NCBI GenBank assembly: GCA_003647065.1
Contig: QMMC01000007.1
Coordinates: 1-41,006 of the forward strand
Length of the DNA stretch: 41,006 nt
Source: Deltaproteobacteria bacterium
GTDB lineage: Bacteria > Myxococcota_A > Polyangia > Polyangiales > B10-G4
Direction: 5' to 3'
Shown: positions 894 to 29,484 of the stretch, piece after piece
Layout of the letters: the number at the start of each line of letters is the position of its first letter
How positions within the stretch are numbered: the first letter of the stretch is position 1
Notes under the pieces: generated by a model
What the model was told of the DNA's origin: nothing
The model's database searches: none
What the model saw: only the letters and a program-made list of their open reading frames with translations
Program-made: the position numbers and the translations under genes

Positions 894-1586
894 GTGCCCA
901 AGATCGACGTCATCATCCCCGCCCTCGACGAGGAGCGGGCTCTGCCCCGGGTCCTCGAGGAGATCCCCGGAGATCTCGTCCGTCGGGTCATCGTCGCCGA
1001 CAACGGGTCCCGCGATCGCACGGCGGAGGTCGCCCGGGCTGGCGGCGCCGAGGTGGTCTCGGAGCCGAACCGCGGCTACGGCGCGGCGTGCCTCGCGGCC
1101 CTCGCCCACCTCGCCGCCAACCCCCCGGATGTCGTGGTCTTTCTCGACGGCGACCACAGCGACCACCCCGCCGAGATGAACCGCCTGGTCGAGCCCCTCC
1201 TCTACGGCGACGCCGACCTCGTCATCGGCTCCCGGACCCTCGGTCGCCGCGAGCGGGGCAGCCTCACGCCCCAGCAGCTCGTCGGCAACGCCGTCGCCTG
1301 CGGAGTGCTCCGTGGGGTCTACGGGGCGCGCTACACCGACCTCGGGCCCTTCCGGGCGATCACCTGGAGCGCCCTCCGCGCCCTCGAGATGCGCGATCGC
1401 AACTTCGGCTGGACCGTCGAGATGCAGATCAAGGCGGCCCAGCTCGGGCTCCGCCACCTCGAGGTGCCGGTCGCGTACCGCCGGAGGATCGGCGAGTCGA
1501 AGGTCAGCGGCACGGTGAAGGGGACCGTCCTCGCGAGCGGCAAGATCCTCTGGACCCTGGCGCGCTACGCCCGGCCGGCTTCATGA
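894..1586 (+). CDS. Glycosyltransferase family 2
   Basis: GTG start; KIDVIIPALDEERALPRVLEEI..VIVADNGSRDRT..EPNRGYGAA..VVFLDGDHSDHP: typical GT2 fold motifs. Confidence 0.88.
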   Translation: MPKIDVIIPALDEERALPRVLEEIPGDLVRRVIVADNGSRDRTAEVARAGGAEVVSEPNRGYGAACLAALAHLAANPPDVVVFLDGDHSDHPAEMNRLVEPLLYGDADLVIGSRTLGRRERGSLTPQQLVGNAVACGVLRGVYGARYTDLGPFRAITWSALRALEMRDRNFGWTVEMQIKAAQLGLRHLEVPVAYRRRIGESKVSGTVKGTVLASGKILWTLARYARPAS

Positions 1587-2233
1587 CGACCACGCCCATC
1601 GCCGTCTTCCTCCGGCCGCCCCACCCCGGCACGACCAAGACCCGCCTGACCCCGTCCCTCGGCTCGGTCGGTGCAGCGACCCTCTACCAAGCGTTCGTCC
1701 AAGATGTGGTCGCGCGGTGCCGCGGTGCCCGGGGCCTCGAGCCCGAACTCTGGGTCGCCGGGGACGTCCACGACCCCTTCATCCGCGGCCTCTGTCCTGA
1801 GCTTCGCCGCGTACGTCAGCCCGACCTCGACCTCGGAGGACGCATGGCCACGGCTCTCGAGGCGGCGGTTCGAGCCCGGGGTCGCGGCCTGGTCATCGGG
1901 ACCGACGTGCCCACCCTGCCGGCCGCTTACCTGATCGCTGCCCGCGACGCCCTCGACTCCGCCGACCTGGTCCTCGGGCCCAGCGCCGACGGTGGATACT
2001 ATCTGGTCGGAGTTCGCGACAACGTCCCCGACGTATTCCGAGGCGTCCGCTACTCGACCCGCCATTGCCTCGCCGACACCCTGGAGCGAGCCCGCGCCAT
2101 AGGCGTGACCGTCGCCCTCCTGCCGCCCTGGTACGACGTCGACACCCCCCAGGACCTGCGCCTGCTTCGCCTGCACGTCGCCCTCGACCCCACCCGGGCC
2201 CGAGTCACGGCGGCGCGCCTCGGTGAGATGTGA
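1583..2233 (+). CDS. DUF2064 / TIGR04282-family glycosyltransferase
   Basis: ATGA overlap with the GT2 gene; FLRPPHPGTTKTRL..., VIGTDVPTLPAAYL, VLGPSADGGYYLVGV motifs. Confidence 0.88.
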   Translation: MTTTPIAVFLRPPHPGTTKTRLTPSLGSVGAATLYQAFVQDVVARCRGARGLEPELWVAGDVHDPFIRGLCPELRRVRQPDLDLGGRMATALEAAVRARGRGLVIGTDVPTLPAAYLIAARDALDSADLVLGPSADGGYYLVGVRDNVPDVFRGVRYSTRHCLADTLERARAIGVTVALLPPWYDVDTPQDLRLLRLHVALDPTRARVTAARLGEM

Positions 2234-2237
2234 TCCC
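2068..2237 (+). repeat. Direct repeat copy A (3' end of DUF2064 gene)
   Basis: Aligns to 4609-4778 at constant offset 2541 with 4 mismatches seen by eye; the core 2208-2233 also occurs at 3188-3213. Confidence 0.93.
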
Positions 2238-2338
2238 TGAGTCGTCCCGCGGCTAGGAAGGGCGGTCTTTGGCGAACGGTCTCTTGTCGCGAGACCGCAG
2301 GGCTCGTCGGTGCAGGTGTCAGAGAATGACTCGGCTGC

Positions 2339-2344
2339 TAGGGT
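2339..2344 (+). promoter_or_regulatory. TAGGGT box 7 nt before ATG (candidate leaderless -10)
   Basis: TAGGGT-tcatccc-ATG(2352). Confidence 0.5.
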
Positions 2345-2351
2345 TCATCCC

Positions 2352-3173
2352 ATGAAACGAGATTCACTTAACAGGCTCGGCTCACTCGTACTGATCGTCG
2401 TCGCCTCCATCACGACCGTGTCCTGCACCGAAGACGACCCTGCCGCCGAAGGCACGGGGCCCGGTCAGTGTACCGACCGCGTCGACAACGACGGTGATGG
2501 CCTCGTCGATTGCGTGGATCCCGGGTGCGCCTCTGGGCCTGACTGCGCCGCCGACGGTGGCACGGCTGACAGCGCGACGCCCCGTGACGGCGGCGCGAGC
2601 CCAACGTGCGAGCAGCTCTGCGGGAAGCTCTTCGAATGCGTCTTCCCCTTCTACGGGTCGGTCGACGAGTGTGTCGTGGCATGCGATATGGACGCGGCTG
2701 ACGCCCTCGCACAGTCCGCAACGTGCGGCGCGACATTGGGCGACTTCAATACATGCCTGGCGGGTCTCGCCTGCGTTGATTTCCGGACGCATCTCGAGCG
2801 TGCGGGGGGCGCCTTTGCGTGCCGCGTCGAGGAAGACGAGTTTACCGCCGCCTGCTTTGACGACAGGCCGGCCACCGAACAACACCTGTGTGCTGATTCG
2901 TGCGCCAAGACCGGCTTCTGCACGGCCGCCGACAGGATCGAGAAGTTCAACTGCACGCAGAGCTGCATCAACAAGTTCCGCACCACCGAAAGCCTCGATG
3001 GAGAAGCGTGTCGCAGCGCGTTCCAGGGGACCCGGGAATGCATCATCGGCTTGTCCTGTCCCGGCTTCAACGATTGGAGCGATGAGAACGGCGACCCCTA
3101 CCCGTGTAACGCCGAGGACGACGAGGTGCGGTCGCTGTGCGTCGAAAGCCGTGACCTGGTCGGCTATCGGTAG
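2352..3173 (+). CDS. Cys-rich lipoprotein, hypothetical
   Basis: MKRDSLNRLGSLVLIVVASITTVSC lipobox; CTDRVDNDGDGLVDCVDPGC motif typical of myxobacterial surface proteins; many Cys. Confidence 0.8.
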   Translation: MKRDSLNRLGSLVLIVVASITTVSCTEDDPAAEGTGPGQCTDRVDNDGDGLVDCVDPGCASGPDCAADGGTADSATPRDGGASPTCEQLCGKLFECVFPFYGSVDECVVACDMDAADALAQSATCGATLGDFNTCLAGLACVDFRTHLERAGGAFACRVEEDEFTAACFDDRPATEQHLCADSCAKTGFCTAADRIEKFNCTQSCINKFRTTESLDGEACRSAFQGTRECIIGLSCPGFNDWSDENGDPYPCNAEDDEVRSLCVESRDLVGYR

Positions 3174-3187
3174 CCGCCGCCCAGCCG

Positions 3188-3213
3188 CGGCGGCGCGCCT
3201 CGGTGAGATGTGA
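3188..3213 (+). repeat. Direct repeat copy B (core only)
   Basis: cggcggcgcgcctcggtgagatgtga identical to 2208-2233 and 4749-4774. Confidence 0.92.
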
Positions 3214-3246
3214 CTTCCTGAATCGACCGCGCATTGGGCGCCATCG

Positions 3247-4563
3247 TCAGGGGAGCCCGTGAGGTGGTTCGGTACATGCGTCCCACGAGATAGGAGTGCC
3301 GAACGCCCTGAGCGTTCCAGTGAAGGCGCTGTCGTTGTCCGCGACGATGTCCGACCGCCGGATGTTCGCGTCCCAGCCAGGGACAATGTCGCCATTCAGG
3401 GCGATGGCCCCGAGCTGGGTGCCGGTGCCCGCGATGTCGATGGACTGGATACCGGTGCCGTCGAAGCTTTCGCCCTCGAGGTCGAAGAGGATTCCGACGC
3501 GTGCGTTGTCGGAGAGACCGACGCGCTCCAGCGTGACTCCTGTGGTGGACCCGAGGAGCTCGATGCCGTCACCGAGGGTGGTGTTCGTGATCTCGGCCCG
3601 AACGAGGCTTACCCCGCTGGACGACAGAGCGGCGATGCCGGTGAGCCCGTTGTTGCGCACCACGCCGTTCGTGACCGCGAAGCCCCCGCTGTTCTGGACC
3701 AAGAGAGCGCCCTCTGCATTGGCCTCGGCGAGCAGATCGGTGTGCGTCACCGTCGCCTGAGATTGCAGAATGCCGACAGTCTCGCTGCCCGAGACGCTTA
3801 GGTTGCTCGTGTTGACGTCTGCGCCGCCGGCGAAAATCGCACCCTCGCGTGCCGCGCCGATCGTCACGTTGCGGAGGTCGGCGGTGCCACCAAAAACGAC
3901 GAGCCCTGCCTTGAAATTTGCCGTCATGTAGCTGTCGGTCAGCGCGAGGCCGCTACTGACGGCAAGCATGCCGGCGTGGGAGAAACCGCTGATGTCGACC
4001 TCCGACCCTTCGACCGATTCGACCAGTACGGCGACGACGCCGTGAGTCGGTACGACGGAGATGTCCGCCTCGGCGCACGCAAGGCCCGCGCTCACGGGCG
4101 TGACCGGGCCCCGGACGTCGACGTTGCGGAGGCGTAGCGCCGTCAACGATTCGACCCCGATGCCGGCGCCGGCGGTAGGGACGATGACTTCGAGATCGAC
4201 GAGGTTCACGTCGCCTGGACCAACGGCGCGGATGCCGTAGTCGCCGTTCGATTGAACCGAGAGCGTCGTGACGGTGGTGGGACGCGTCGCGTCCCCGGGG
4301 GTAAGCCGGAGCGTGGGTTGGCCTGGGGGGCCGACCAGGCGAGTCAGCCCGACTCCTGCGCCGCAGAGAACGACCCCGGCCGGTACATCGAACGAGCCTT
4401 CAAAGATCCCTTCAGGAAGGCAGACGCGCTCACCGGCTGTCGCGGAGGCCAAGACCCCCTGCAAGTCCTCGGGCGTGCTGATCGTCCCGCCTCCGCTGCA
4501 GCCCACGAGACAAGCGGTCAGGACGAGCGCCATCGAATCGAGAAGGCGCATGCCAAGGGCCAT
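3247..4563 (-). CDS. Right-handed beta-helix lipoprotein
   Basis: MALGMRLLDSMALVLTACLVGCSGG lipobox; repeated short beta-strand/turn coils (LRNVTI, LRLRNVDV, VNTSNLSVSGS, VSLVRAEI, VTLERVGLSDN). Confidence 0.8.
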   Translation of the reverse strand: MALGMRLLDSMALVLTACLVGCSGGGTISTPEDLQGVLASATAGERVCLPEGIFEGSFDVPAGVVLCGAGVGLTRLVGPPGQPTLRLTPGDATRPTTVTTLSVQSNGDYGIRAVGPGDVNLVDLEVIVPTAGAGIGVESLTALRLRNVDVRGPVTPVSAGLACAEADISVVPTHGVVAVLVESVEGSEVDISGFSHAGMLAVSSGLALTDSYMTANFKAGLVVFGGTADLRNVTIGAAREGAIFAGGADVNTSNLSVSGSETVGILQSQATVTHTDLLAEANAEGALLVQNSGGFAVTNGVVRNNGLTGIAALSSSGVSLVRAEITNTTLGDGIELLGSTTGVTLERVGLSDNARVGILFDLEGESFDGTGIQSIDIAGTGTQLGAIALNGDIVPGWDANIRRSDIVADNDSAFTGTLRAFGTPISWDACTEPPHGLP

Positions 4564-4569
4564 GATCCG

Positions 4570-4599
4570 AGGCTACCAAGTCACTATCGTGTTTGTCAG
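4570..4599 (-). promoter_or_regulatory. Candidate promoter CTGACA-N18-TAGCCT-N6-ATG
   Basis: On the minus strand: CTGACA (4599-4594), 18-nt spacer, TAGCCT (4575-4570), 6 nt, ATG at 4563. Confidence 0.6.
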
Positions 4600-4608
4600 C
4601 GTGCTCGT

Positions 4609-4778
4609 CCTCGCCGACACCTTGGAGCGGGCCCGCGCCATAGGCGTGACCGTCGCCCTCCTGCCGCCCTGGTACGACGTCGACACCCCCCAGGACCTGC
4701 GCCTGCTTCGCCTCCACGTCGCCCTCGACCCCTCCCGGGCCCGAGTCACGGCGGCGCGCCTCGGTGAGATGTGATCCC
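4609..4778 (+). repeat. Direct repeat copy C (near-full 170 bp)
   Basis: Copy of 2068-2237; three of the four differences are synonymous third-position changes in the DUF2064 frame, one is Thr to Ser. Confidence 0.93.
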
Positions 4779-4851: not shown

Positions 4852-5211
4852 ATGACGACGGAGCAGGCTGAGTTCGAGGTCCGAATAGAGGTACGTGCGG
4901 GCTACGTATTCATTTGGCAGCGCGGGCTCGTGAGCTCGGCCGACCAGCTCGAGGCCATGCAGCGCGACATCGGCGCCGCCATGGATCGCGCGGGCACCCG
5001 ATCGGCGATGTTCGACAACCGCGACACCGAGCCCTCGGACGAGTGGCTCCGGGCCTCGATGTGGACCTGGCTCTGCGAACACGTCGATCGTGCGGCCCTG
5101 CTTCAGTCGGATCCGCGCAATATCGGCCGGGCCGAGCGCACGGGGCAACGAAATCGCATCCTCGTTCGGGCCTTCCACGAAGAGGCGGAAGCCGAAGCGT
5201 GGCTCGTCTGA
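4852..5211 (+). CDS. Small hypothetical protein, possibly STAS/SpoIIAA-like
   Basis: FEVRIEVRAGYVFIWQRGLVSSADQLEAMQRDIGAAMDRAG..; GTG at 4843 is an alternative start. Confidence 0.6.
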   Translation: MTTEQAEFEVRIEVRAGYVFIWQRGLVSSADQLEAMQRDIGAAMDRAGTRSAMFDNRDTEPSDEWLRASMWTWLCEHVDRAALLQSDPRNIGRAERTGQRNRILVRAFHEEAEAEAWLV

Positions 5212-5458: not shown

Positions 5459-6112
5459 ATGTCGGATGGTGACCAGCTCTTCGCGCGCTTCGGAAAGCAG
5501 TGTCCAGCGGGCACGGTGCTTTTTCGAGAGGACGACGTCGGCGACAAGCTCTACGTCATCCAAACCGGCCGGGTGAAGATCACCAAGGCCGTCCACGACC
5601 AGACCAAGACCCTGGCGATCCTCGGGGCCGGGGAGTTCCTCGGCGAGATGGCCATCCTGAATCAGAAGCCGCGCACGGCGACCGCCGAGGTCGTCGAAGA
5701 CGCCGAGCTCCTGGTCCTCGACGGCAAGACTCTCCAGCAGATGGTCGTCAGCAACGCTGAGATCGCCGTCCGGCTCATCAAGAAGCTCGCCCGGCGCCTC
5801 GACGGGGCCAACCAGCTCATCGAGATCCTCATGCACGAGGATCCGAAAGCCCGGGTCATCCTCGGCCTCTCCCGGGAGGCCGCGGTCTCCGGGGTGAAGC
5901 GCGACGACGGGACCGTCAGCGTGCCCCTCGACTCGGCGGGTCTCGCTCAGCAGGTGGGCTTGCCCGTCTCCGCCGTCGACGGTGTGCTCAACCGCGTCGT
6001 GCGCCTCGGCATCATCGTCAAGCACCCCGACTCGATCGAAGTCTCCGACGTCGAACGGCTGCACGAGTTCCTCGAGTTCCTCGAGATGCAGCAGAAGTAC
6101 GGGGACGCCTGA
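5459..6112 (+). CDS. Crp/Fnr-family cyclic nucleotide-binding regulator
   Basis: FREDDVGDKLYVIQTGRVKITK..ILGAGEFLGEMAILNQKPRTATAEVVEDAELLVLDGKTL cNMP-binding fold; C-terminal HTH-like SAGLAQQVGLPVSAVDGVLNRVVRLGII. Confidence 0.92.
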   Translation: MSDGDQLFARFGKQCPAGTVLFREDDVGDKLYVIQTGRVKITKAVHDQTKTLAILGAGEFLGEMAILNQKPRTATAEVVEDAELLVLDGKTLQQMVVSNAEIAVRLIKKLARRLDGANQLIEILMHEDPKARVILGLSREAAVSGVKRDDGTVSVPLDSAGLAQQVGLPVSAVDGVLNRVVRLGIIVKHPDSIEVSDVERLHEFLEFLEMQQKYGDA

Positions 6113-7365: not shown

Positions 7366-9231
7366 ATGCTTCGCCTGAAGCTCAGCCTGACGGTCGCGGC
7401 ATTGTCGCTGACAATCGGTTGCGCAGACGACGTGTCGCCTCCGGCCGACTCCGGTGCGCCGGACAGTGGATCCGTTGATGGAGGTATGGAGGACGCGACT
7501 CTGGGGGCGACACCGGACCCCCCGGCCCTTCCCGTACTCACCCCCTGCCCCGCCGGCTGGGCGAGCGTCGACCTAGGCGACGGGTCGCCGGTCACCTGTG
7601 ACCCCTTCCCGTCGCCCCCCGCCGAAAACTGCGGCCCCGGCGAGGCGCACTTCGTGGGAGAAGAAGGATGCGCCGCGATCGGCTCCGCGTGCCCCACCGA
7701 TGGCTGGCCCGCGGACCTGCCCACGGATCGTCCCGTGCTCTACGTGCGCGCCGACGCCGCCCCGGGAGGCGACGGCACGATGGCAACACCCTTCGTCTCC
7801 CTCAACGATGCGATCGGTGTCGCCGTTTCCGGTACGGTCATCGCCGTCGCCCCGGGGCGATACGTCGGTCGCCACTCGGTGACCAATCTCGGCCTGTCGA
7901 TTCGCGGCGCATGTCTCGAGACGATCCTCGAAAGCGACAGCATCTTGCCGGCGGTCGAGATGCTCAACACCACGAGCGAGTTGCGCAACTTGACCATCGT
8001 CGGCGGTGGGTATGGCCTGGAAGCCGTGGACTCGACGGTCGATCTTTCTTTCGTAGAGATCCTCATGGGCCCGGCGCGGCCGGTTTTCGCCGCCGTGGCG
8101 TTGCTCAATACGACCCTGACCGGTGATTCGGTCGTCATCCGTGACCCGCTGGTCAAGGGACTGAGGGCCGGTCGCGATTCGACGGTAGACCTCCGCCGCA
8201 TCGTCATCGAGGGCGAAATGCAAACCGGTGTGGTCGTCTCCGACGCGACCTTTCGTGGCGACTCGATCGTCATTCGCGGCTTTGGTTCGGCCTCGGGGGA
8301 TGGAGAAGGTGTCTTTGTCGTCGGCACGAGCGAACTCACCCTCACGCAATCGGCCATCGTCGATGGGTTCGGCCAGCCGGTTCTCGCCACCGACGACTTC
8401 ACCGTGACCCTCCGTGACTCGCTGGTCCGCGGTCCCCCGGTGACGACCACGGCCGTGGCAGGGGCCATCGCCGTGATTGGAGCCGGGTCCCTCACCCTCG
8501 AACGGGTTTCGATCTCGCAGCTTCGTAATAACGGGATCGTCGCAGCCGTGGGCACCCGCTTTGCGGCGACCGATGTCGTGATCGTCGAAACCGTCGCCCC
8601 GGTGGATACGGGGGTGGGCTATGGGATCGAGCTTGCCGCCGCAGCGACCGCAACCATGGAGCGCGTCTTCATCGACCGCTCCACCGCCCTCGGCCTCCTC
8701 GTCGATGGTCGAGATACGCTGGTCGACGCGACGGACCTCACCATCGCCAGAACGCGTGGCGATCGAATCGGCACTTTCGGCCGCGGCATTCAGGTGCAGC
8801 GCGGAGGCGTCCTGACGTTGAATCGGGCCGAGCTCCGAGACAACCGCGAGGTCGCCATCGCCGTCGCGAGGTTTCGCTCCTCCCTGACCGCCACGGACCT
8901 TCGCCTGGTCGATACGCGGCAGCGACAGTGTGCCGAAGACGGCGGTGAGTGCGCGGCGGCGGGCATCGGTATCGGCGCCTACGAAGAGGGCGCGGTCTCG
9001 GTCGACCGATTCCTCGTCGCCGGCAACTTCCTCGCGGGCGTGCAGATCGCGACCGACGGCAGCCTCGATCTCTCCAACGGCGTCGTCGAACGAAACCCCG
9101 TCGGCGCCAACATTCAAGTGCCGGGCTACGACGTCACGCGCTTGACTACGAACGTCCTCTACCGAGACAACGGCGCAAACCTCGACTCGGCCGAACTGGT
9201 GGTCCCAGCGCCGGACGTCACCGTCCGCTGA
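7366..9231 (+). CDS. Right-handed beta-helix lipoprotein, family copy 1
   Basis: LTIGCADD lipobox, Ser/Asp/Pro linker, Cys motif (CPAGW..CDPFP..CGPGEAHF.GEEGCAAIG..CPTDG), beta-helix coils, conserved C-terminal YRDNGANLDSAEL. Confidence 0.9.
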   Translation: MLRLKLSLTVAALSLTIGCADDVSPPADSGAPDSGSVDGGMEDATLGATPDPPALPVLTPCPAGWASVDLGDGSPVTCDPFPSPPAENCGPGEAHFVGEEGCAAIGSACPTDGWPADLPTDRPVLYVRADAAPGGDGTMATPFVSLNDAIGVAVSGTVIAVAPGRYVGRHSVTNLGLSIRGACLETILESDSILPAVEMLNTTSELRNLTIVGGGYGLEAVDSTVDLSFVEILMGPARPVFAAVALLNTTLTGDSVVIRDPLVKGLRAGRDSTVDLRRIVIEGEMQTGVVVSDATFRGDSIVIRGFGSASGDGEGVFVVGTSELTLTQSAIVDGFGQPVLATDDFTVTLRDSLVRGPPVTTTAVAGAIAVIGAGSLTLERVSISQLRNNGIVAAVGTRFAATDVVIVETVAPVDTGVGYGIELAAAATATMERVFIDRSTALGLLVDGRDTLVDATDLTIARTRGDRIGTFGRGIQVQRGGVLTLNRAELRDNREVAIAVARFRSSLTATDLRLVDTRQRQCAEDGGECAAAGIGIGAYEEGAVSVDRFLVAGNFLAGVQIATDGSLDLSNGVVERNPVGANIQVPGYDVTRLTTNVLYRDNGANLDSAELVVPAPDVTVR

Positions 9232-9275
9232 GCGTCCCCGCTTTGGGATAGTGCCCTCGGCGGTGCGGGCGATCG

Positions 9276-9305
9276 TCGACGCCGACCGGCTCGCCGCGGT
9301 AGCCT
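9276..9305 (+). promoter_or_regulatory. Candidate promoter TCGACG-N18-TAGCCT, 6 nt before GTG 9312
   Basis: Duplicated version of the 7330-7359 promoter. Confidence 0.6.
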
Positions 9306-9311
9306 GTCGCC

Positions 9312-11180
9312 GTGGGGTGTGTGCGCATGAGCGTCGCTGGGGCGGCCCTCTGGCTGATGTTTGGTTGCGCCGACGACATGTTGCCGGCGGTCGACTCGGG
9401 GTCGCCGGACAGCGGCGCGATCGACTCTGGGGTAGTAGAGGACGCGAATCTCGGGACGATGCCGGACCCCCCGCTCCTCCCGGTACTCACTCCCTGTTCT
9501 CCGGGTTGGGTGGCCGTGGATCTGGGCGACGGGTCGCCGGTTACCTGCGACCCGTTTCCTTCGCCCCCCACGGAACCTTGCGGCCCCGGCGAAGCTCAGT
9601 TTCCGGGTGAAGAGGGGTGCGCGGCGATCGGACCCGAGTGCCCCGCTGACGGATGGCCCGCCGAACTGCCGACGGACCGGCCGGTGCTCTACGTGCGCGC
9701 CGACGCCGCCGCCGGAGGCGACGGAACCCTGGCAGCCCCCTTCGTTTCCATCACCGATGCTGTCGACGTCGCCGCGTCCGGTTCGGTCATCGCGGTCGCC
9801 CGTGGGCGATACGTCGGCGCTGTCGACGTGTTTTCCATCGACATCTCGATTCGGGGCGCGTGTCTCGAGACCTTCATCGAGAGTGGCGGCACCGCGGCGG
9901 CGGTCACGATGCGCAGCACGACGAGCGACTTGCGCAACATGAGCCTCGTCGGGCCTTCGAATGGCCTGATCATCTCCGGCGCGACGGTCGACCTCACCTC
10001 CGTGGAGATCGCGCTAGTCGCCACGGACCGCCGCTTCACCGGTGCGACGCTGCGCAACTCGACGCTGACCGGCGAATCGGTGGTGATGCGTGGCCCGATG
10101 CTCAATGCGGTCTTTGCCCACCAGGGCTCGACGATCGGGGTCCGCCGAGCGGTCCTCGAGGGGGCCCGGGAACAGGCCGTCAGCCTCTCGGATTCGATCT
10201 TTCGCGGCGAGTCCTTGGTGATCAATGGCTTTGGTTCGACCTCGGCGGATGGGCAGGGCTTCTACGCCCTCGGCCCGGGCGAAATCACGCTCACGCGGTC
10301 TGCGATCATCAATGGGATCGGTTCTCCGGTGCTGACCGCGGACCCAATCCGCGTGACCTTCCGTAACTCACTGATCCGCGGTCGTCCTACAGCCGAGTTG
10401 ACCCCCGCCGGCGCCCTCGCTGTGATTCGAGGCGGCGTGCTCACCCTGGACCGCGTGTCGATCTCTCGGATGCGAACTAACGCGATCGTGGCCGCGGGGG
10501 CTGCGCGTCTCGAGGCGACCGATGTGTTCATCACCAATACGGTCGGCTCCCTGGACTCGCCCGTCGGGTATGGGATCGAGCTCGCCGAGGCGTCGACGGC
10601 GAGCATGCGCCGCGTCTTCATCGATCGCTCCACCGCGGTGGGCCTCCTCCTCGACAGTCGGGACACGGTGGTCGATGCGACGGATCTCACCATCGTTCAC
10701 ACGCGTGGTGATGGGGGCGGGACCTTCGGCCGCGCCATCCAGGTCCAGCGCGGGGGCGTCCTGACGTTGAATCGGGCCGATCTCCGAGACAACCGAGAGG
10801 TAGCCATCTCCGTCGCGAGGACTAGCTCCTCCCTGACCGCCACGAACCTTCGCCTCGTCGATACGCGGCAGCGCCAGTGCGCCGAAGACGGCACGGAGTG
10901 CGCCGCGGCGGGCATCGGCATCGGCGCCTACGAAGAGGGCGCGGTCTCGGTCGACCGATTCCTCGTCGCCGGCAACTTCCTCGCCGGCGTGCAGGTCGCG
11001 ACCGACGGCAGCCTCGACCTCGCCAACGGCGTGGTCGAACGAAACCCCGTCGGGGCGAACATCCAGGTGCCCGGCTATGACGTCACCCGCTTGACCACGA
11101 ACGTGCTCTACCGAGACAACGGCGCAAACCTCGACTCGGCGGAGTTGACGGTGCCGGCGCCGGACGTCGGGATCCGCTGA
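9312..11180 (+). CDS. Right-handed beta-helix lipoprotein, family copy 2
   Basis: Tandem paralog of 7366..9231; GTG start aligns with the ATG of copy 1; WLMFGCADD lipobox. Confidence 0.9.
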   Translation: MGCVRMSVAGAALWLMFGCADDMLPAVDSGSPDSGAIDSGVVEDANLGTMPDPPLLPVLTPCSPGWVAVDLGDGSPVTCDPFPSPPTEPCGPGEAQFPGEEGCAAIGPECPADGWPAELPTDRPVLYVRADAAAGGDGTLAAPFVSITDAVDVAASGSVIAVARGRYVGAVDVFSIDISIRGACLETFIESGGTAAAVTMRSTTSDLRNMSLVGPSNGLIISGATVDLTSVEIALVATDRRFTGATLRNSTLTGESVVMRGPMLNAVFAHQGSTIGVRRAVLEGAREQAVSLSDSIFRGESLVINGFGSTSADGQGFYALGPGEITLTRSAIINGIGSPVLTADPIRVTFRNSLIRGRPTAELTPAGALAVIRGGVLTLDRVSISRMRTNAIVAAGAARLEATDVFITNTVGSLDSPVGYGIELAEASTASMRRVFIDRSTAVGLLLDSRDTVVDATDLTIVHTRGDGGGTFGRAIQVQRGGVLTLNRADLRDNREVAISVARTSSSLTATNLRLVDTRQRQCAEDGTECAAAGIGIGAYEEGAVSVDRFLVAGNFLAGVQVATDGSLDLANGVVERNPVGANIQVPGYDVTRLTTNVLYRDNGANLDSAELTVPAPDVGIR

Positions 11181-12551: not shown

Positions 12552-14062
12552 GGTCGCCCGGGAAAGAGCCGACGGATCGCCGCCCGGGCCTCGTCGACGG
12601 GTACATTGGGCACGGCGACGCGCGCGCCGCCGCCGGCGATGGCGATGAGGGTAGCGACGCCGTGCCATCGGTCGAAGGGTGACTGCACGATGTTGAGGGC
12701 CTGCATGCGTGACGCCGGGGCCACCACCAAGGAGCGGCGGAAGACCCCTCGCCAGACAGCGAGACCCTCGTGGTCATGGGCCCAGGTGAGCGTGCGCAAG
12801 GTGGCGACGCCCCAGATCGCCCCCAAGAGCGCGATTGCGACCGGTGCGGCGAGAGCCCAGAGCCCGACGGACCCGTAGAGCCCAGCCCCGAGGGCGCTGC
12901 CCAGCAACGCGCCCCGGCTCGCGCTGCGCCGCACGATGCGCGGTGAGGTGCGTGTCCAGTGGTACCGGGAGACATCGGCCTCCGGCAGAACCCGCGGTAA
13001 GAGCGCTGTCAGGGACGCACGCGAGGCGATGGGCACGAACACGTCGGTGCCCTGGGCTTCGGCGGTCTTCGCCTCGGCGCCGGCCCCCATGTCGTCGGTC
13101 CGGAGCTCGGCGAGACCGAGGAGGCGGCGCAGGAGTGTCTGGCGTAGGCGTACGACCTGGATGCGCACCCGCGGCAGCGCATGCACGCGTTTGGTGAAGA
13201 GGCCGTAGCTTCGAGAAAAGACTCCTCGGTCTTCGCGGAGAGTGAATCCGTAAAATCGCATCACGTTGAGGGCCGCCGATCCGACCCATCCGGCGAGTAC
13301 AAAGACCGCCACCACCGTAGCGACGAACACCGCGATCGCGAAGGTGCCCTGGCCGGCGATCGGCGCGAAGAGGCGTCGTCCATGCTCCCACGCCTTCACG
13401 AAAAACGAGAGGTCGTCGTCCGGCATCGCCTGCGAGAGGAAGCCGACGAGGCCGGCGAGGATCAGCCCCGCCCGGTTGTCGGTGAGTCCCCGGAGGATGA
13501 GCGCAAAGACACCAACCGAGAGCAGCGCCGGCGCAGTGCTCGCTCCCTCGCCCGCCGCCTCGATCGGCGCGTGGCCCGGGGACACCGCCCCTCCGAGGGA
13601 CCGCAGCGCATCTCGCAGGGCGTCACCCTGCTCCCGAGTGATCACATCGAGCTTGGCCTCGGCCCCCTCGGTTCCCGAGGTTTGGACGGACACCACGACT
13701 ACCCCCAGAAGTCGATGGAGGGGCCCGGCTTCGAAGGAGAGATCTTGTACCCGGGTGACCGGGATGCGCCGCTGCTGTCGGCGGATGAAACCGCTGTCGA
13801 TGGCGAGCTCTCGGGAGGTGAGCCGGTATCGATAGCGCAGCCACTGGACCACCGGCCCCACCAAAGACATCACCGTGACGAGGGCCATCAACCACAGGGT
13901 CGTGACGACACGTTCGAAGGAGTCTGCCGTCACGGCCTGAAATGCGATGATGGCCAGCCAGAACGCCGTGCGCCGGAGACCGGCGAGGAACGCGAAGAAG
14001 ATCGACGCCGGGTGAAGGCGCCCCTCGAGGATCAACGCGGCGTCGTCGGCTTCAGCGTGCAT
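12530..14062 (-). CDS. PH domain-containing membrane protein, YdbT-like
   Basis: Repeated bPH2-like segments (YRLTSRELAIDSGFIRRQQRRIPVTRVQDLSFEAGPLHRLLGVVVVSVQT; YGFTLREDRGVFSRSYGLFTKRVHALPRVRIQVVRL) with multiple TM stretches. Confidence 0.85.
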   Translation of the reverse strand: MHAEADDAALILEGRLHPASIFFAFLAGLRRTAFWLAIIAFQAVTADSFERVVTTLWLMALVTVMSLVGPVVQWLRYRYRLTSRELAIDSGFIRRQQRRIPVTRVQDLSFEAGPLHRLLGVVVVSVQTSGTEGAEAKLDVITREQGDALRDALRSLGGAVSPGHAPIEAAGEGASTAPALLSVGVFALILRGLTDNRAGLILAGLVGFLSQAMPDDDLSFFVKAWEHGRRLFAPIAGQGTFAIAVFVATVVAVFVLAGWVGSAALNVMRFYGFTLREDRGVFSRSYGLFTKRVHALPRVRIQVVRLRQTLLRRLLGLAELRTDDMGAGAEAKTAEAQGTDVFVPIASRASLTALLPRVLPEADVSRYHWTRTSPRIVRRSASRGALLGSALGAGLYGSVGLWALAAPVAIALLGAIWGVATLRTLTWAHDHEGLAVWRGVFRRSLVVAPASRMQALNIVQSPFDRWHGVATLIAIAGGGARVAVPNVPVDEARAAIRRLFPGRPQKSHIA

Positions 14063-14588
14063 CGTCCGCGATGGCGAGGACCTGGCCGCGCATTTCTTCG
14101 GCCCGAGTCGGCGTGAGCCCGGGGATGCGAAACGTCGCGGCGCGTCCTCCCGAGGTGAATACCGAGAGGCTCGCCAGGCCGAAGAGCCGCTCGAGGGGGC
14201 CGCGGTCCACGTCGAGGTGCTGGAGCCGGGTGATGGGGATCGTCTTTTCCCGGTGGACCAGCACGCCATGGCGAACCCTGAGATTCACAGCGTCGATGGT
14301 GAATTCGAGGCGGCGGTAGCGGAGGCGGGTGGTGACGAGGACCCAGGTGATGCGCAGCGCGCCGAGGACCCCCGCGACGCCTACGATGCCGAGGCCGACC
14401 TCGGGGTTGTCCGCCCACAGGAAGAAGAGCCCCTGGAAAGCGATCATGCCGAAGAGAATCAGGGCGCTCACGATGCCCGAGATGCGCCAGTAGGCGACGA
14501 CCGCCGGCTCGGGTTTCTCCATCGCAGGTCGCGGAACGGTCTCAGAATCTTCGGTTTCCGGGGCCGCCATCGGCGCCGAGTCTCGCAC
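14052..14588 (-). CDS. PH domain-containing protein, YdbS-like
   Basis: RLRYRRLEFTIDAVNLRVRHGVLVHREKTIPITRLQHLDVDRGPLERLFGLASLSVFTSGG; overlaps the YdbT-like gene; start may be ATG at 14570. Confidence 0.83.
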   Translation of the reverse strand: MRDSAPMAAPETEDSETVPRPAMEKPEPAVVAYWRISGIVSALILFGMIAFQGLFFLWADNPEVGLGIVGVAGVLGALRITWVLVTTRLRYRRLEFTIDAVNLRVRHGVLVHREKTIPITRLQHLDVDRGPLERLFGLASLSVFTSGGRAATFRIPGLTPTRAEEMRGQVLAIADDAR

Positions 14589-14615
14589 GAATGTTCTCCG
14601 AGGAGCGGCCCGTGG

Positions 14616-15041
14616 TCACTCCGTCGGGGGACGAGGACCGCCGTAAGCCGGCACCGGTGGCGGTTCGGCTATCGGCTCACCGGGGTCGGCTTCGTTTTGC
14701 TCGTCGCCTTCGTTCACCGGTGGCGGTGGCTCGGGCGGGGGAGGAGGCCCGCCGTAGGCCGGTACCATCAAATCACGATCCACCGGCGGTGGGTTAGGCT
14801 CCGGGTCGGCCTCGTTCTGCTCATCGCCCTGGTCCGCCGGAGGGCCACCGTAGATCTCGGCCCCGCGCGACTGCACGTCGTCGGCGCAGGCTGAGGCCGA
14901 GAGGATCGCCGCAGCGGCTGCCACGTTGCGCACGCCGCGCAGCAGGCTGGGGGTGCGCGCCCCACAGAACGGGCACGACCTCTCTTCGGATCGCACGTGG
15001 CGATGACAGGCGCGGCATGGGTTCAACACGGGGCCAACCAT
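14616..15041 (-). CDS. Short zinc-ribbon / hydrophobic / Pro-rich AYGGP-repeat protein
   Basis: CRACHRHVRSEERSCPFCGA, AAAAAILSASACADD, then two GDEQNEADP...PAYGGP repeats. Confidence 0.72.
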   Translation of the reverse strand: MVGPVLNPCRACHRHVRSEERSCPFCGARTPSLLRGVRNVAAAAAILSASACADDVQSRGAEIYGGPPADQGDEQNEADPEPNPPPVDRDLMVPAYGGPPPPPEPPPPVNEGDEQNEADPGEPIAEPPPVPAYGGPRPPTE

Positions 15042-15084
15042 AGCAGCATCACGTCACCGCCTGCGACGTACCTGGGCTGGCGCA

Positions 15085-16512
15085 TCAAAACCCGAGGGTG
15101 CCCATCGCTTGGTCGTGGACTTGGCGTTGAATTTGCTGGCGGTCCTCGGCGGGCATCGCAGGAGCGGGCCGCGGTTCGTGAGCTTCCTCGGCCTCGGGCT
15201 CGGCATCGTCGCTCCCTTCGGCGGAGGCCGCGGTTCCGACGGTTGGGGGAAGCGAGTTCCGGAGCGACGCCATCGACGAGACCTGGGCTTCCAGCACCTC
15301 GTCACCGTCCAGCGCATATCCGTTGGCCTCCTGCTCGGCTCGTTCGAGCATGGCCCGGGCCTCGGCGACGTTGCCGTTGCGGTTCAGACGGATCGCCTGC
15401 ACCGTGGCCGCGGCCGCCTGCATGCGCGCCGCTTCGCTTTCGAGCTCGGCGTCGCGGCCGCGGGCGATCTCTTCGTCGTCGTCCGATGCCTTGGCTCCGA
15501 GGAAGACCCGTCGCTCGAGGTGTCCGGCTTCGGCGACCGCGTCATCGAAGCCGAGGTGCACGTCCATCAACTCCACCGTCGCTCCGGCACGGCGCCCTTC
15601 GGCGGTCGCGCGCACGATGAGGTCCCGGTGCTCGCCCTCGTGAAGGTCACCGAGGTGAACCTCGACGAAGCCGCCGACGTGCTGGACGTTTTGCCCTACG
15701 ACGTTCTGGATCGTGACTCCCGGCCCCGGCTGCAGACGCACGACGGCGTTCCGACCGAAGACCCGCTGCATGCGCATCACCTCGTCACGGAAGAGCGTCG
15801 CCACCTGCTCGGACTCTTCGACGTAGTGAAACTGCCCGCCGCTCACCTGAGCGACGTCGCCCATCAAGGTCTCGTTGTAGTCGAGGCCGAGGCCGATTGC
15901 CGTCACCGTCATGCCCCGCTCCCCGGCGGCCTGGGCCATGGCGACGATGCCCGCCTCTTCGTTGGGCACTCCGTCGCCGAGCAATACCACCCGGTTCACG
16001 CCGTTCGGCTCGTAGTGAGTCATGAGCTCGGTGAGCCCCGCCTGGAGGCCGCCGGCCATGTCGGTCGTGCCCTGGGCCTCCATTTCGGCGATGCGCGCTC
16101 GGAGTTCGGCGAGGTTGTCTTCGATCACCGTCGACGGCAGCAAGACCTCCGCCGAGCTGTGGAAGGCCACCACGCTGAGTCGGTCACCTTCGCGAAGAAG
16201 ATCGACGATGGTGAGCGCCGCGTCTCGGGCATCTTCGATGGGCTCACCGGCCATGGAGCCCGAGGTGTCGATCACCAGGGCGAGGTTGAGCGGCGGGCGT
16301 CCAGTCCCATCCACGGGCTGGGTGCTGATCCGGATGCGCGCCAGCACCTCACCGTTTTGCCCCGCCGGCACGAAGGCGTTGCCCAGGCTGCCGCTGAGGG
16401 AGATCACCCCCGGATCTTCGTTTTCCGTCGTCGACGTACCGCCGCAGCTCGCCCCGAAAGCGAGCACCGCAACTACCCCGAGCACACCCAGCACCGTCAT
16501 CGTTTTCGTCAT
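15085..16512 (-). CDS. VWA domain lipoprotein
   Basis: VVAVLAFGASCGG lipobox; LNLALVIDTSGSMAGEPIEDAR MIDAS motif; VVLLGDGVPNE. Confidence 0.92.
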   Translation of the reverse strand: MTKTMTVLGVLGVVAVLAFGASCGGTSTTENEDPGVISLSGSLGNAFVPAGQNGEVLARIRISTQPVDGTGRPPLNLALVIDTSGSMAGEPIEDARDAALTIVDLLREGDRLSVVAFHSSAEVLLPSTVIEDNLAELRARIAEMEAQGTTDMAGGLQAGLTELMTHYEPNGVNRVVLLGDGVPNEEAGIVAMAQAAGERGMTVTAIGLGLDYNETLMGDVAQVSGGQFHYVEESEQVATLFRDEVMRMQRVFGRNAVVRLQPGPGVTIQNVVGQNVQHVGGFVEVHLGDLHEGEHRDLIVRATAEGRRAGATVELMDVHLGFDDAVAEAGHLERRVFLGAKASDDDEEIARGRDAELESEAARMQAAAATVQAIRLNRNGNVAEARAMLERAEQEANGYALDGDEVLEAQVSSMASLRNSLPPTVGTAASAEGSDDAEPEAEEAHEPRPAPAMPAEDRQQIQRQVHDQAMGTLGF

Positions 16513-16638
16513 CGAGCCCTCTCCCGCCTCACCGGCTTCTTGCGCTTCTTGCGCGTCCGGTCGGGGCGAAGACGTCTGGCGATTCGAGTCGGTCTAGGAA
16601 AATTCGCCACCGCCCCTGGCGTCGACGAATTCGAGCCT

Positions 16639-17032
16639 TAGGCTCAATCGGTCCTTCGAATCACTCGATCCGGGGGGCGTACGATATGCGATGGATGGGT
16701 CTCAGCCCCGGAATGCTCCGAATTCCCGATGGGAATCGCATCGCTTTCATCCGGGGGTTCGTCTCGTGATCTCGTATCGCGGGGCACCGTGCCCCCCCAA
16801 CTGGAACACCCAGATAGTGGCCCGGCGCCATTTCGAGGCCGGTGTGTCCCTGGGTGCCGGCGCGAGCCGGGGAGACAAGAACGCATGAACGAAACCTGTA
16901 TCGTTGGCCTCTCGACGGAGGTGGGAGCGAGTTAGCTTCCTATGTGAGCCCTGTGCTCCCCGCTCCATCAGGAGAGGCCAGCGCGGAACGTGGGAGGGTG
17001 GTGACATAGGTGTCATCGCCCTCCTTTTTTTT
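16639..17032 (+). ncRNA. Candidate structured non-coding RNA, class unknown
   Basis: Perfect stems by eye: 16722-16727/16731-16736; 16781-16786/16790-16795; 16807-16813/16850-16856 enclosing 16822-16826/16838-16842; 16857-16861/16866-16870 with GCGA loop; 16902-16913/16972-16983 (one GU) enclosing 16924-16929/16961-16966; then a terminator. TAGGCT box at 16639. The 5' end is a guess. Confidence 0.42.
16993..17032 (+). terminator. Intrinsic terminator, 14-bp stem + T8
   Basis: GGAGGGTGGTGACA-tagg-TGTCATCGCCCTCC-TTTTTTTT; fully paired stem with two GU pairs. Confidence 0.88.
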
Positions 17033-17059
17033 CTTCGGTGCGTGCTTACATAGGCCGTC

Positions 17060-17581
17060 ATGTCGAACGCGCGTTGTCACATCTTCACCGAGAAGGATGG
17101 CCTCCTCTCGAAAGTCGCCCATGACCTCCGGATCCGCGTCGACCGCTTCGACGTGAAGGTCGAGGGCGCTGGCGATGGACGGCAGGTGACCGCGACCTTC
17201 GACCCCGGGTCTCTCGTCGTCGAGACGGCGATCTCGAAGGGCGCCGACAATCCGAGCGCGCTGAGCGCAAAGGATCGGGCGAAGATCGAAAAGTCGATTC
17301 AGACCGACGTCCTCGATGTGCGGCGCAACGCCGAGATCCGGTTCACGTCGAAGAGCATCGAGGAAAGGGGTGCGGGTCTGGTCGTCACAGGCGATCTCAC
17401 GCTCCACGGCCGCACCCGGTCCCTCACCGTCGAGGCCCGTGACGCCGGGGACGCTTGGGAGGCGTCGGTCACGCTCCATCAGCCGGACTTCGGCATCAAA
17501 CCCTTCTCCGCCATGATGGGCACCCTCAAGGTGAAGCCCGACCTGCGCGTAGAGATCTCCGTCCCGAAGAGCGACGGCTGA
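17060..17581 (+). CDS. YceI-like protein
   Basis: IFTEKDGLLSKVAHDLRIRVDRFDVKV..LDVRRNAEIRFTSKSI..VTGDLTLHGRTRSLTVEA. Confidence 0.82.
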   Translation: MSNARCHIFTEKDGLLSKVAHDLRIRVDRFDVKVEGAGDGRQVTATFDPGSLVVETAISKGADNPSALSAKDRAKIEKSIQTDVLDVRRNAEIRFTSKSIEERGAGLVVTGDLTLHGRTRSLTVEARDAGDAWEASVTLHQPDFGIKPFSAMMGTLKVKPDLRVEISVPKSDG

Positions 17582-17604: not shown

Positions 17605-18708
17605 TCAATGAAGAGCGATAGTGATCGTATCGACGTCGATCGTCGGGACCTCGTCGTGGCGCGCGTCGAGGCCCAAGGCATCGAGGGTATCCCAGCGCAC
17701 CGCCCGGAGACGGAGCGTCGCCGTGATCGACGTGGCGCCCTCGGGGATCGCCACGCGGGCTTGCCGTGAATCTCCCGCCGAAAGGCTCCGAGACACGACC
17801 TCGTCCGCGTCGGTGATCAGCGCGACCGGTGCGCCGTTCAGGGTCATCTCCGCCCCGAAGGACAAGACCCGGCGAGGATTTCCGTCGCTCTCACCGTCTG
17901 GGCCGTGCGAGGAGACATCCACCCATACGTCACGGAGAAAGGCCGCTCCGGTCGGCACGGAATGCCCGGCGCCTATATTCGTGACCGTGATGATGGCGTC
18001 GCCGCCGACTCGCTCGACCTCGAGGGTCACCGCATCCCGGAAGAGCTCTCGGGCGTCATTCGCGGCGCGCTGGGCTTCTTCTTCGCTCGCGCCCCACGGC
18101 GGGTCGAGGCCAACGAAGCGGTGCTCTCCTTCGGGCATGTGGCAGGTCGCGCACGAGATGTCTGCCTCGGCGAAGTCGCTCGCGCGGTGCTCGGTGAGGG
18201 TCGGCTCGTCGAGGAGCCCAGGGCCCGTCACCTCGTGGCAGGTGCCGCAGAGCGACGCCGAGGTCAGGAACCCCGTCGTTCGGATTTCATGGGCGCCGTT
18301 GCTGCCTTCGCCGGTCGGACCGATCAGCGGAAGGCCCCAGTCGACGCGCAGGCGTCCGTCGCGCTCGCCGGTATTGCCGGTGGCGGCGTGGCAGGAGACG
18401 CAGCCGATGCCCATCTCTCCGTCGGGCCCCCCGTGGCTGGGCTGATGGCAATCGATGCAGGCGTCGCGAGCGCTCACGCCCCACGCACCCTCGACCTCGA
18501 CGAGGAGGGCCTCGAAGACCGGCGACGTACCGCTCGTCGCGTGGGGGCTCGTCGCCCACGCGGCGTACTCTTCTTCGTGACACGTCCCGCAGCTCTCGGC
18601 CTCCGGCCCGAAAGGAAGCGCCGCGCTCTCTTGCGAGCATCCGCCTATGGCGATGAGGGCGATGAGGGCGACCGGTGCCCACCGAATGCCGAAGCCGAAG
18701 CGGTTCAT
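17605..18708 (-). CDS. Multiheme c-type cytochrome lipoprotein (5 CxxCH)
   Basis: IALIAIGGCSQ lipobox; CGTCH, CIDCH, CVSCH, CGTCH, CATCH. Confidence 0.88.
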   Translation of the reverse strand: MNRFGFGIRWAPVALIALIAIGGCSQESAALPFGPEAESCGTCHEEEYAAWATSPHATSGTSPVFEALLVEVEGAWGVSARDACIDCHQPSHGGPDGEMGIGCVSCHAATGNTGERDGRLRVDWGLPLIGPTGEGSNGAHEIRTTGFLTSASLCGTCHEVTGPGLLDEPTLTEHRASDFAEADISCATCHMPEGEHRFVGLDPPWGASEEEAQRAANDARELFRDAVTLEVERVGGDAIITVTNIGAGHSVPTGAAFLRDVWVDVSSHGPDGESDGNPRRVLSFGAEMTLNGAPVALITDADEVVSRSLSAGDSRQARVAIPEGATSITATLRLRAVRWDTLDALGLDARHDEVPTIDVDTITIALH

Positions 18709-19358
18709 AGGCTGAAATGCACCTGAGCGCCGAGGCTCGCCTGCACCACCGCGAAGGTCCCGTACTCCTCCGACACTTCACCGGTCCATCCATGGGAGCT
18801 CCGGTCGTGGCCGAGGTAGCCCGTCGCCTGCACATCCAAGAAGACCGAGAAGTATCGCTGTGGGGACCACTCGACGCCGGCGCCTCCGTGAATGCCGAAG
18901 AGCACGTCGTCGGCCCGGGGTGCGCCGTCCTGGGCGGGCTCGATCATGCTGAACACGGCGCAGAAGCCGAAGAGCGGACGGATGCGAAAGCTCGGCGTGA
19001 GCTCGATGGGTATGTAGAGATTGAACCCGATCGAGTGGTCGTGGCGCAGCCCGCCGCCGGGGTTGTCGACGATGAGACTCTCCGCGAAGAGGTCGAGACC
19101 CAGCATGTCAAAGGGCTCCCAGCGCAGGCGCCCGCCGCCGCCGACGCCGGGATAGGCCCCGGCCCAGGCCGTGCCGTAGACGCCGAGGGCGAGGTCCTCG
19201 TCGAAGGCCGCCGACGGGCCAGACTCGTTGGATTCGTCGGACTCGACGCGCGTCTCTGGCGCATCCGGTTCTTCTTGGCCCAGAGCGGCGCCGGTAAACG
19301 AGAGGGTGACGGCCAGAAGAGTGAGGCAAACGAGGCAAAACATTCGAGTCATGGCCAT
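18705..19358 (-). CDS. Outer-membrane beta-barrel-like protein
   Basis: MAMTRMFCLVCLTLLAVTLSFTGAALGQ signal peptide; alternating strands ending in ..QASLGAQVHFSL; ATGA overlap with the cytochrome gene. Confidence 0.78.
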   Translation of the reverse strand: MAMTRMFCLVCLTLLAVTLSFTGAALGQEEPDAPETRVESDESNESGPSAAFDEDLALGVYGTAWAGAYPGVGGGGRLRWEPFDMLGLDLFAESLIVDNPGGGLRHDHSIGFNLYIPIELTPSFRIRPLFGFCAVFSMIEPAQDGAPRADDVLFGIHGGAGVEWSPQRYFSVFLDVQATGYLGHDRSSHGWTGEVSEEYGTFAVVQASLGAQVHFSL

Positions 19359-28429: not shown

Positions 28430-28696
28430 ATGGACGAGAAGGTTCGAGCGTATCTCTCCTCGATCGGAGCCCGAGGAGGTCGGAAGAGTCGGCGAAAGCT
28501 CGACCCCGACCAGGCCCAGGCGATGGTGCGGGTTCGCCAGGCGAGACGGGCCTATCGGCAGTTCCACGCCTCGTGTTTCTGGTCCTACGACCCCGAGTAC
28601 CGGGTGACCCTCGCGGACGTCCCCTGGGTGGCCGAGCAGCTCATGAAGCACGGCGGGCGTGACGCATGGGAGAAGGCCGCGAAGCTGTGCCCCTAA
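28430..28696 (+). CDS. Small basic protein, putative antitoxin/partner of AbiEii-like toxin
   Basis: MDEKVRAYLSSIGARGGRKSRRKLDPDQAQAMVRVRQARRAYRQF; overlaps the downstream nucleotidyltransferase gene. Confidence 0.7.
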   Translation: MDEKVRAYLSSIGARGGRKSRRKLDPDQAQAMVRVRQARRAYRQFHASCFWSYDPEYRVTLADVPWVAEQLMKHGGRDAWEKAAKLCP

Positions 28697-29484
28697 CGGA
28701 TTTCCAGGCCGAGGTCGCGGGTCTTCTGGCGAGCCATCGGACCGAGGAGAGCCACCTCGCCGGGGGAGCGGCTCTGCATTTGGAGCCCAACAGTACGCGT
28801 TACAGCAACGACCTCGACTACTTCCACGACTCCGAGGAGCGCGTGGCCGAGGCGTTCTCCGCGGACACGAGGTTGCTCGAGGATCAGGGCTACTCGGTCC
28901 ACACCGAGATGAACCAGGCAGGCTACGTGCGCGCGGTCGTCTCCCGGGACGGCGAAGCCACCAAGGTCGAGTGGGCTCACGATTCGGCGTGGCGCTTCAT
29001 GCCGACCGTCGCGGATCCGCGCGTGGGATATCAGCTTCATCCCGTCGACCTCGCCGTCAACAAGGTGCTCACCCTCGCGGGCCGAGAGGAGCCCCGGGAC
29101 TTCCTCGACATCGTTCACATCCACGACACCATCCTGCCCCTCGGCGCGCTTTGCTGGGCGGGGGCCGGCAAGGACCCGGGGTTCACCCCACGTTCGCTCC
29201 TCGAACTCTTGCGGCGCCGGGGCAAGTACCGCCCCGAGGACTTCGCCCGGCTTCGGCTCGTCGCGCCAGTGGACGTTCAGGCCCTCAAAGTGAAGTGGTT
29301 AGGCATGCTGGACCAAGCCGAGGCCTTCATCGCGTCACGTCCCGCGGACGAACTCGGCTGCCTCTACTACTCGCGCTCCCAAGGCCGCTTCGTCGAGCCG
29401 GCCACCGGTCCGTTGCCCAACGACATCGCGCCCCACCACGGCCGACCCGGCGGTGTATTGCCCAGGGCTCTCGAAGAGCGCTAG
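28687..29484 (+). CDS. AbiEii/AbiGii-like nucleotidyltransferase toxin family
   Basis: HLAGGAALHLEPNSTRYSNDLDYFHD (GG..DLDYF) and later HPVDLAVNKVLTLAGREEPRDFLDIVHIHD; GTG start at 28687 or ATG at 28666. Confidence 0.75.
   Translation: MPLTDFQAEVAGLLASHRTEESHLAGGAALHLEPNSTRYSNDLDYFHDSEERVAEAFSADTRLLEDQGYSVHTEMNQAGYVRAVVSRDGEATKVEWAHDSAWRFMPTVADPRVGYQLHPVDLAVNKVLTLAGREEPRDFLDIVHIHDTILPLGALCWAGAGKDPGFTPRSLLELLRRRGKYRPEDFARLRLVAPVDVQALKVKWLGMLDQAEAFIASRPADELGCLYYSRSQGRFVEPATGPLPNDIAPHHGRPGGVLPRALEER

Follow-up and report, generated by a model that had tools for sequence, protein, structure and literature searches.

Copies of a DUF2064 gene end border two single genes: a candidate case of stepwise insertion by homologous recombination

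It is often unclear by which route a single gene that carries no mobility functions gets into a chromosome. The minimal mobile elements of Neisseria are small cargo located between conserved genes and exchanged without an integrase. Prophage e14, located in icd, and the cis-mobilizable elements are integrase elements, which regenerate the 3' end of the gene in which they insert. In conjugation experiments with Escherichia coli, part of the target gene end was duplicated in 56 of 60 clones; in the 14 that were sequenced the duplicated stretch ranges from 109 to 950 bp, and it was explained by one crossover of a molecule that had closed into a circle again (PMC3240628). The displacement model for rhs genes involves homologous recombination through a circular intermediate, with the old gene end kept and shunted downstream (Jackson et al., 2009, PMC2935791). 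For the immunity-gene arrays of the Vibrio cholerae type VI secretion system (T6SS), homology-facilitated illegitimate recombination (HFIR) has been proposed (Kirchberger et al., 2017, PMC5361080). The locus described here shows two single genes behind a DUF2064 gene, each of them bordered by copies of the 3' end of that gene. Most likely, ordinary recombination, with no dedicated mobile element, has on two occasions placed a foreign gene behind the conserved enzyme gene of this chromosome. The type of recombination is probably one already known, though the setting is less familiar.

Gene content of the locus and copies of the gene end

The window, that is, the whole stretch of DNA that was analysed (41,006 nucleotides), belongs to a 7.08-Mb host assembly of 594 contigs, which is 86% complete, and the locus is close to the end of its contig. 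It shows the following features, in order:

1583-2233, plus strand: intact DUF2064 gene (CofC/nucleotidyltransferase-like; PF09837, E 3.6e-29), which carries the repeated 3' end
2068-2237, plus strand: copy A, the 3' end of the intact DUF2064 gene (repeat search; homologous to copy C)
2352-3173, plus strand: LIPO, cargo 1, a putative lipoprotein gene with no Pfam family
3180-3213, plus strand: copy B, a short gene-end remnant with stop codon (exact 26-nt core at 3188-3213)
3247-4563, minus strand: HELIX, cargo 2, encoding a right-handed beta-helix, lipoprotein-like (PF13229)
4609-4778, plus strand: copy C, a putatively displaced gene end of 55 codons including the stop, followed by the native downstream side
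4852-5211, plus strand: small gene between copy C and the CRP-family gene, not next to DUF2064 in relatives
5459-6112, plus strand: CRP-family regulator (PF00027), the ancestral neighbour of DUF2064, adjacent to it in 15 same-order loci

The DUF2064 gene, the lipoprotein-like gene and the minus-strand beta-helix gene agree with the initial annotation, which placed the latter two between the copies. The only matches of LIPO in its own genome or in relatives are short repeat-like stretches, and among the genes of the sampled genome its GC content is at the 9th percentile and its codon score at the 14th. HELIX has five relatives at other places of the genome, with at most 51% identity, and its GC content and codon score are unremarkable for the genome. 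A tandem pair of paralogous beta-helix genes is found at 7366-11180 of the window, together with the repeat blocks named D1 and D2.

The insert lies between direct copies of the target gene end (A and C), and an identical 26-nt core is present at every border (A, B and C). Copies A and C were found by the repeat search as previously described, at a constant offset (2541), and show four mismatches in 170 nt (about 98% identity). Copy A comprises the last 166 nt of the DUF2064 gene plus 4 nt; the similarity between A and C ends 4 nt past the stop codon, and from there the sequences differ. Copy C continues to score as coding sequence. The third copy of the core, also present in the initial annotation, is an exact match: the same 26-mer, stop codon included, starts at 2208, 3188 and 4749, and 100 shuffled windows contain no copy of it. 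The whole-genome search that had been suggested for the core was made with its inner 23 nt and allowed up to three mismatches; the host assembly contains no site other than these three, and the core is not widespread. Ungapped, copy B aligns with copy A over 34 nt (91%); with gaps, the alignment covers 49 nt (86%) and runs 14 nt beyond the stop codon. The left edge of B is CGGCGGC, which also forms the right arm of a hairpin that may exist directly after the LIPO stop codon; this hairpin is not significant, as 17 of 200 shuffles are equally good. CGGCGGC at the start of B could be a microhomology join, as is typical of HFIR. Two other identities of the borders are not supported by a test that consisted of folding and an Rfam search: the borders fold no better than shuffles, contrary to integron attC sites, and they show no Rfam match, either as attC sites or as RNA elements. 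At 14-36 of the window, on the minus strand, there is a palindrome-forming repeat, GGGGACGCGNGGTTGCTTAATTG, of which the assembly contains 70 at no more than one mismatch, often in inverted pairs about 75 bp apart, like a REP family; the assembly also contains one Y1_Tnp transposase match above the cut-off (C169).

Orthologues of DUF2064 are found in 80 of 184 genomes of the same order. The conserved run contains, in order, an upstream glycosyltransferase gene, DUF2064, the CRP-family regulator and a phosphodiesterase gene. The distance from the DUF2064 stop to the CRP start ranges from -10 to 65 bp in 15 same-order loci (L006, L008, L009, L011, L012, L016, L020, L022, L024, L025, L028, L055, L297, L298 and L303), and is 3.2 kb in the window; L055 comes from a different collection and could duplicate the genome of another of the 15 loci. 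The target site is thus empty in these relatives, which are order level at the closest, with no same-family genome among them. Since DUF2064 is directly before the CRP gene in the 15 loci, LIPO, HELIX, copies B and C and the gene at 4852-5211 are considered derived here. No second DUF2064 end was detected in the examined flanks of the relatives. Conservation of the three-copy layout in all relatives had been named beforehand as an observation against insertion, and the layout is not conserved in the 15 same-order loci. The initial annotation also proposed to look for empty sites in which DUF2064 is joined directly to the gene at 4852: empty sites exist, but in them DUF2064 abuts the CRP gene and the gene at 4852 is not its neighbour. 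This small gene is perhaps an older insertion without a remnant.

Gene-end copies at other loci

The census of gene-end copies covers 2.32 Mb of the same genome, with genes called by codon usage, and a hit is a gene-end repeat in DNA outside genes of at least 120 aa, within 6 kb. Its counts are descriptive, the filters having been adjusted after first looks at the data. The class of 3' ends copied downstream on the same strand contains 15 hits, from 8 loci and 12 genes. Its mirror image, in which 5' ends have copies upstream, contains three hits, and 3' ends with upstream copies account for two, one of which is the reflection of an overlapping neighbour. Several hits are weak or messy. The bias toward 3' ends downstream is suggestive, the sign test of the 8 loci against the 3 of the mirror class being not significant. 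Among the remnants at other loci of this genome are older, decayed ones, with 80-92% identity. The control contains 64 loci from other genomes (0.82 Mb, mixed MAG and isolate, fetched around DUF2064 genes) and shows three hits of the same class, 3' ends downstream. Densities per Mb in the control and in the own genome are 3.7 versus 6.5 for hits and 3.7 versus 3.5 for loci. Because the density in other genomes is comparable, the pattern is not a speciality of this organism.

Locus L199 shows a gene (112-1263) with three remnants of its own 3' region, located at 2590-2633, 3275-3325 and 4215-4269. The stretches of the gene that the remnants match, listed by their position in the gene, are 1147-1197, 1204-1247 and 1210-1264; their extents differ. 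They surround a minus-strand gene, a possible gene at about 2700-3134 and a gene encoding an AbiEii-like nucleotidyltransferase. The tested neighbours are absent from the fetched flanks of the relatives of the host gene, and an empty site is not definable at L199. A second AbiEii-like nucleotidyltransferase gene (PF08843) is located at 28666-29484 of the window. Locus L060, which belongs to an unrelated MAG, contains on its reverse strand, between about 5951 and 7928, a Lar_N lactate-racemase-like gene, a HicA toxin gene whose small upstream ORF shows no Pfam match, and a gene-end remnant. This remnant has 265 nt, is 88% identical to the gene's own end and has its own stop codon. Locus L194 shows tandem lipoprotein genes (13217-17206); between them, at 14334-14445, pieces of the ends of two neighbouring genes are fused, a mosaic that looks like a local rearrangement. 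Locus L196 (18051-19273) has two copies, at 18325-18376 and 19077-19128 (90%), of the junction at which a gene end meets the end of a convergent lipoprotein gene, and the two copies flank a small gene that reads as encoding a cold-shock protein.

Three of the four differences between copies A and C are silent in the DUF2064 frame, as the initial annotation had counted, and 0.98 are expected; four differences are too few to prove separate descent. Pooling the 16 pairs of the own genome, doubtful pairs included, 34 of 96 changes are silent against 22.9 expected (P 0.0055). Such an excess can also come from a local duplicate with later selection on the intact copy. The remnant of L060 shows 17 silent changes and 15 that are not, with 9.1 silent changes expected (P 0.001). 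Because silent changes are in excess, this comparison of sequences indicates that for some or all of its history the remnant was under evolution as coding sequence.

Possible origins of the arrangement

Stepwise insertion behind the conserved gene by homologous recombination, with the old gene end displaced, is the probable origin of the arrangement, though far from certain. It is supported by the repeats, the empty sites in relatives, a window with no Pfam-recognisable recombinase and the further loci with the same anatomy; the donor, the order of the events and the recombination route are what we infer. DNA of a related strain would bring a 3'-end allele of DUF2064 joined to a different downstream gene. 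If this DNA was a small circle, a single crossover within the gene end would be enough for its entry; if it was linear, one side could enter by homology and the other by an illegitimate join (HFIR). The imported end would complete the gene and carry the new gene behind it, and the resident 3' end would be shunted downstream as a remnant. In the first event HELIX would have arrived and C would have been displaced; in a later event LIPO would have arrived, and the then-resident end would have been trimmed to B. Copy C would thus be the displaced resident end and copy A the arrived allele that now completes the gene. The initial annotation had taken C as the arriving copy; since C adjoins the native CRP side, it is more naturally read as the displaced resident end. 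From the same annotation, which proposed successive insertion with a regenerated gene end, the insertion is retained, and the order A-LIPO-B-HELIX-C fits it, but a site-specific cassette core is not needed, given the varying extents at L199. Regarding the entry of DNA, Ku was not found in the genome, which leaves non-homologous end joining of the Ku type without support, and ComEC is present only as a gene fragment; uptake and end joining therefore have no independent support.

Local duplication, either tandem duplication plus deletion or template switching, would leave gene-end fragments among neighbouring genes and does not require a donor. The mosaic of L194, which brings together a duplicated lipoprotein gene and pieces of two genes beside it, is in its favour. 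At the DUF2064 locus it is nevertheless unlikely, as neither LIPO nor HELIX duplicates a nearby sequence and the empty sites lack both. Moreover, the similarity between A and C stops just past the stop codon: random endpoints would often run on, whereas two alleles followed by different genes should part at the stop. The silent excess of L060 also indicates that some of the divergence, at least, arose while the two copies descended separately as coding sequence.

Site-specific integration at the gene 3' end, in which A, B and C represent the attL, the internal att and the attR of two small elements with the gene end as their attachment site, as in e14 and icd, and with an integrase that was lost or acts in trans, is quite improbable. 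The terminal 26 nt, stop codon included, are common to all three copies as an att core would be, and the near-identical end of 170 nt, in which most changes are silent, is reminiscent of integrated elements by which a gene end is regenerated. However, no recombinase is recognised in the 41-kb contig: in agreement with the initial annotation, which saw no integrase in the window, the Pfam scan, which covered all called genes but three short ones, recognised neither integrase nor transposase. The genome-wide search, which covered recombinases of the tyrosine type, yields just three matches in the 86%-complete genome (C90, C369 and C581), all outside the window, which may or may not be of the IntI type. 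Of these three, the census covers the first 18.5 kb of C90, which show no hit. The remnants of a single gene at L199 vary in extent, unlike a fixed att core.

An assembly artefact, with the contig joining strain variants of the metagenome at short shared sequences, would suit a locus near a contig end of a fragmented, incomplete assembly (594 contigs, 86% complete) and copies 98% alike, which is what strain mixtures give, but is very improbable, because B requires real DNA with a gene end after LIPO, the decayed remnants (80-92%) at other loci of the assembly are not made by strain mixing and the same anatomy is present in the unrelated MAG of L060.

Stepwise insertion by homologous recombination may have a wider reach. 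Gene-by-gene growth of bacterial chromosomes behind conserved genes, in which gene-end alleles and the cargo linked to them are imported again and again, is conceivable, though doubtful, as a general recombinase-free route across phyla, in which displaced ends would form a readable trail at housekeeping loci. If displaced ends mark entries, one genome sequence is enough to tell where an insertion took place, which allele was resident and which event preceded which, and the share of plain homologous recombination in gene gain becomes countable across bacteria.

Comparison with known systems

The minimal mobile elements of Neisseria, like the locus described here, show small cargo and no integrase, but displaced copies of gene ends are not a defining feature of them. 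Elements of the e14/icd type share with this locus a gene end duplicated at both borders; they differ in that no integrase is recognised here and that the extents of the remnants vary at comparable loci. The displacement of rhs C-terminal tips shows the same succession of an intact gene followed by displaced gene-end fragments downstream. In rhs, a variable toxin tip is displaced, whereas at this locus an enzyme gene exchanges its end for a near-identical one, with unrelated genes between. The gene itself is not an rhs or polymorphic toxin gene: it belongs to DUF2064, its displaced end is 98% identical and it shows no variable tip. In the T6SS immunity arrays, successive insertions push earlier gene 3' ends downstream, as is proposed here; those arrays consist of effector-immunity modules at one weapon locus, while this locus contains single genes behind a metabolic gene. 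The conjugation experiments in E. coli used a laboratory construct, and classical HFIR usually deletes recipient DNA and involves no duplication; however, in those experiments, as at this locus, the target gene end is duplicated in part and the foreign DNA lies between its copies (PMC3240628).
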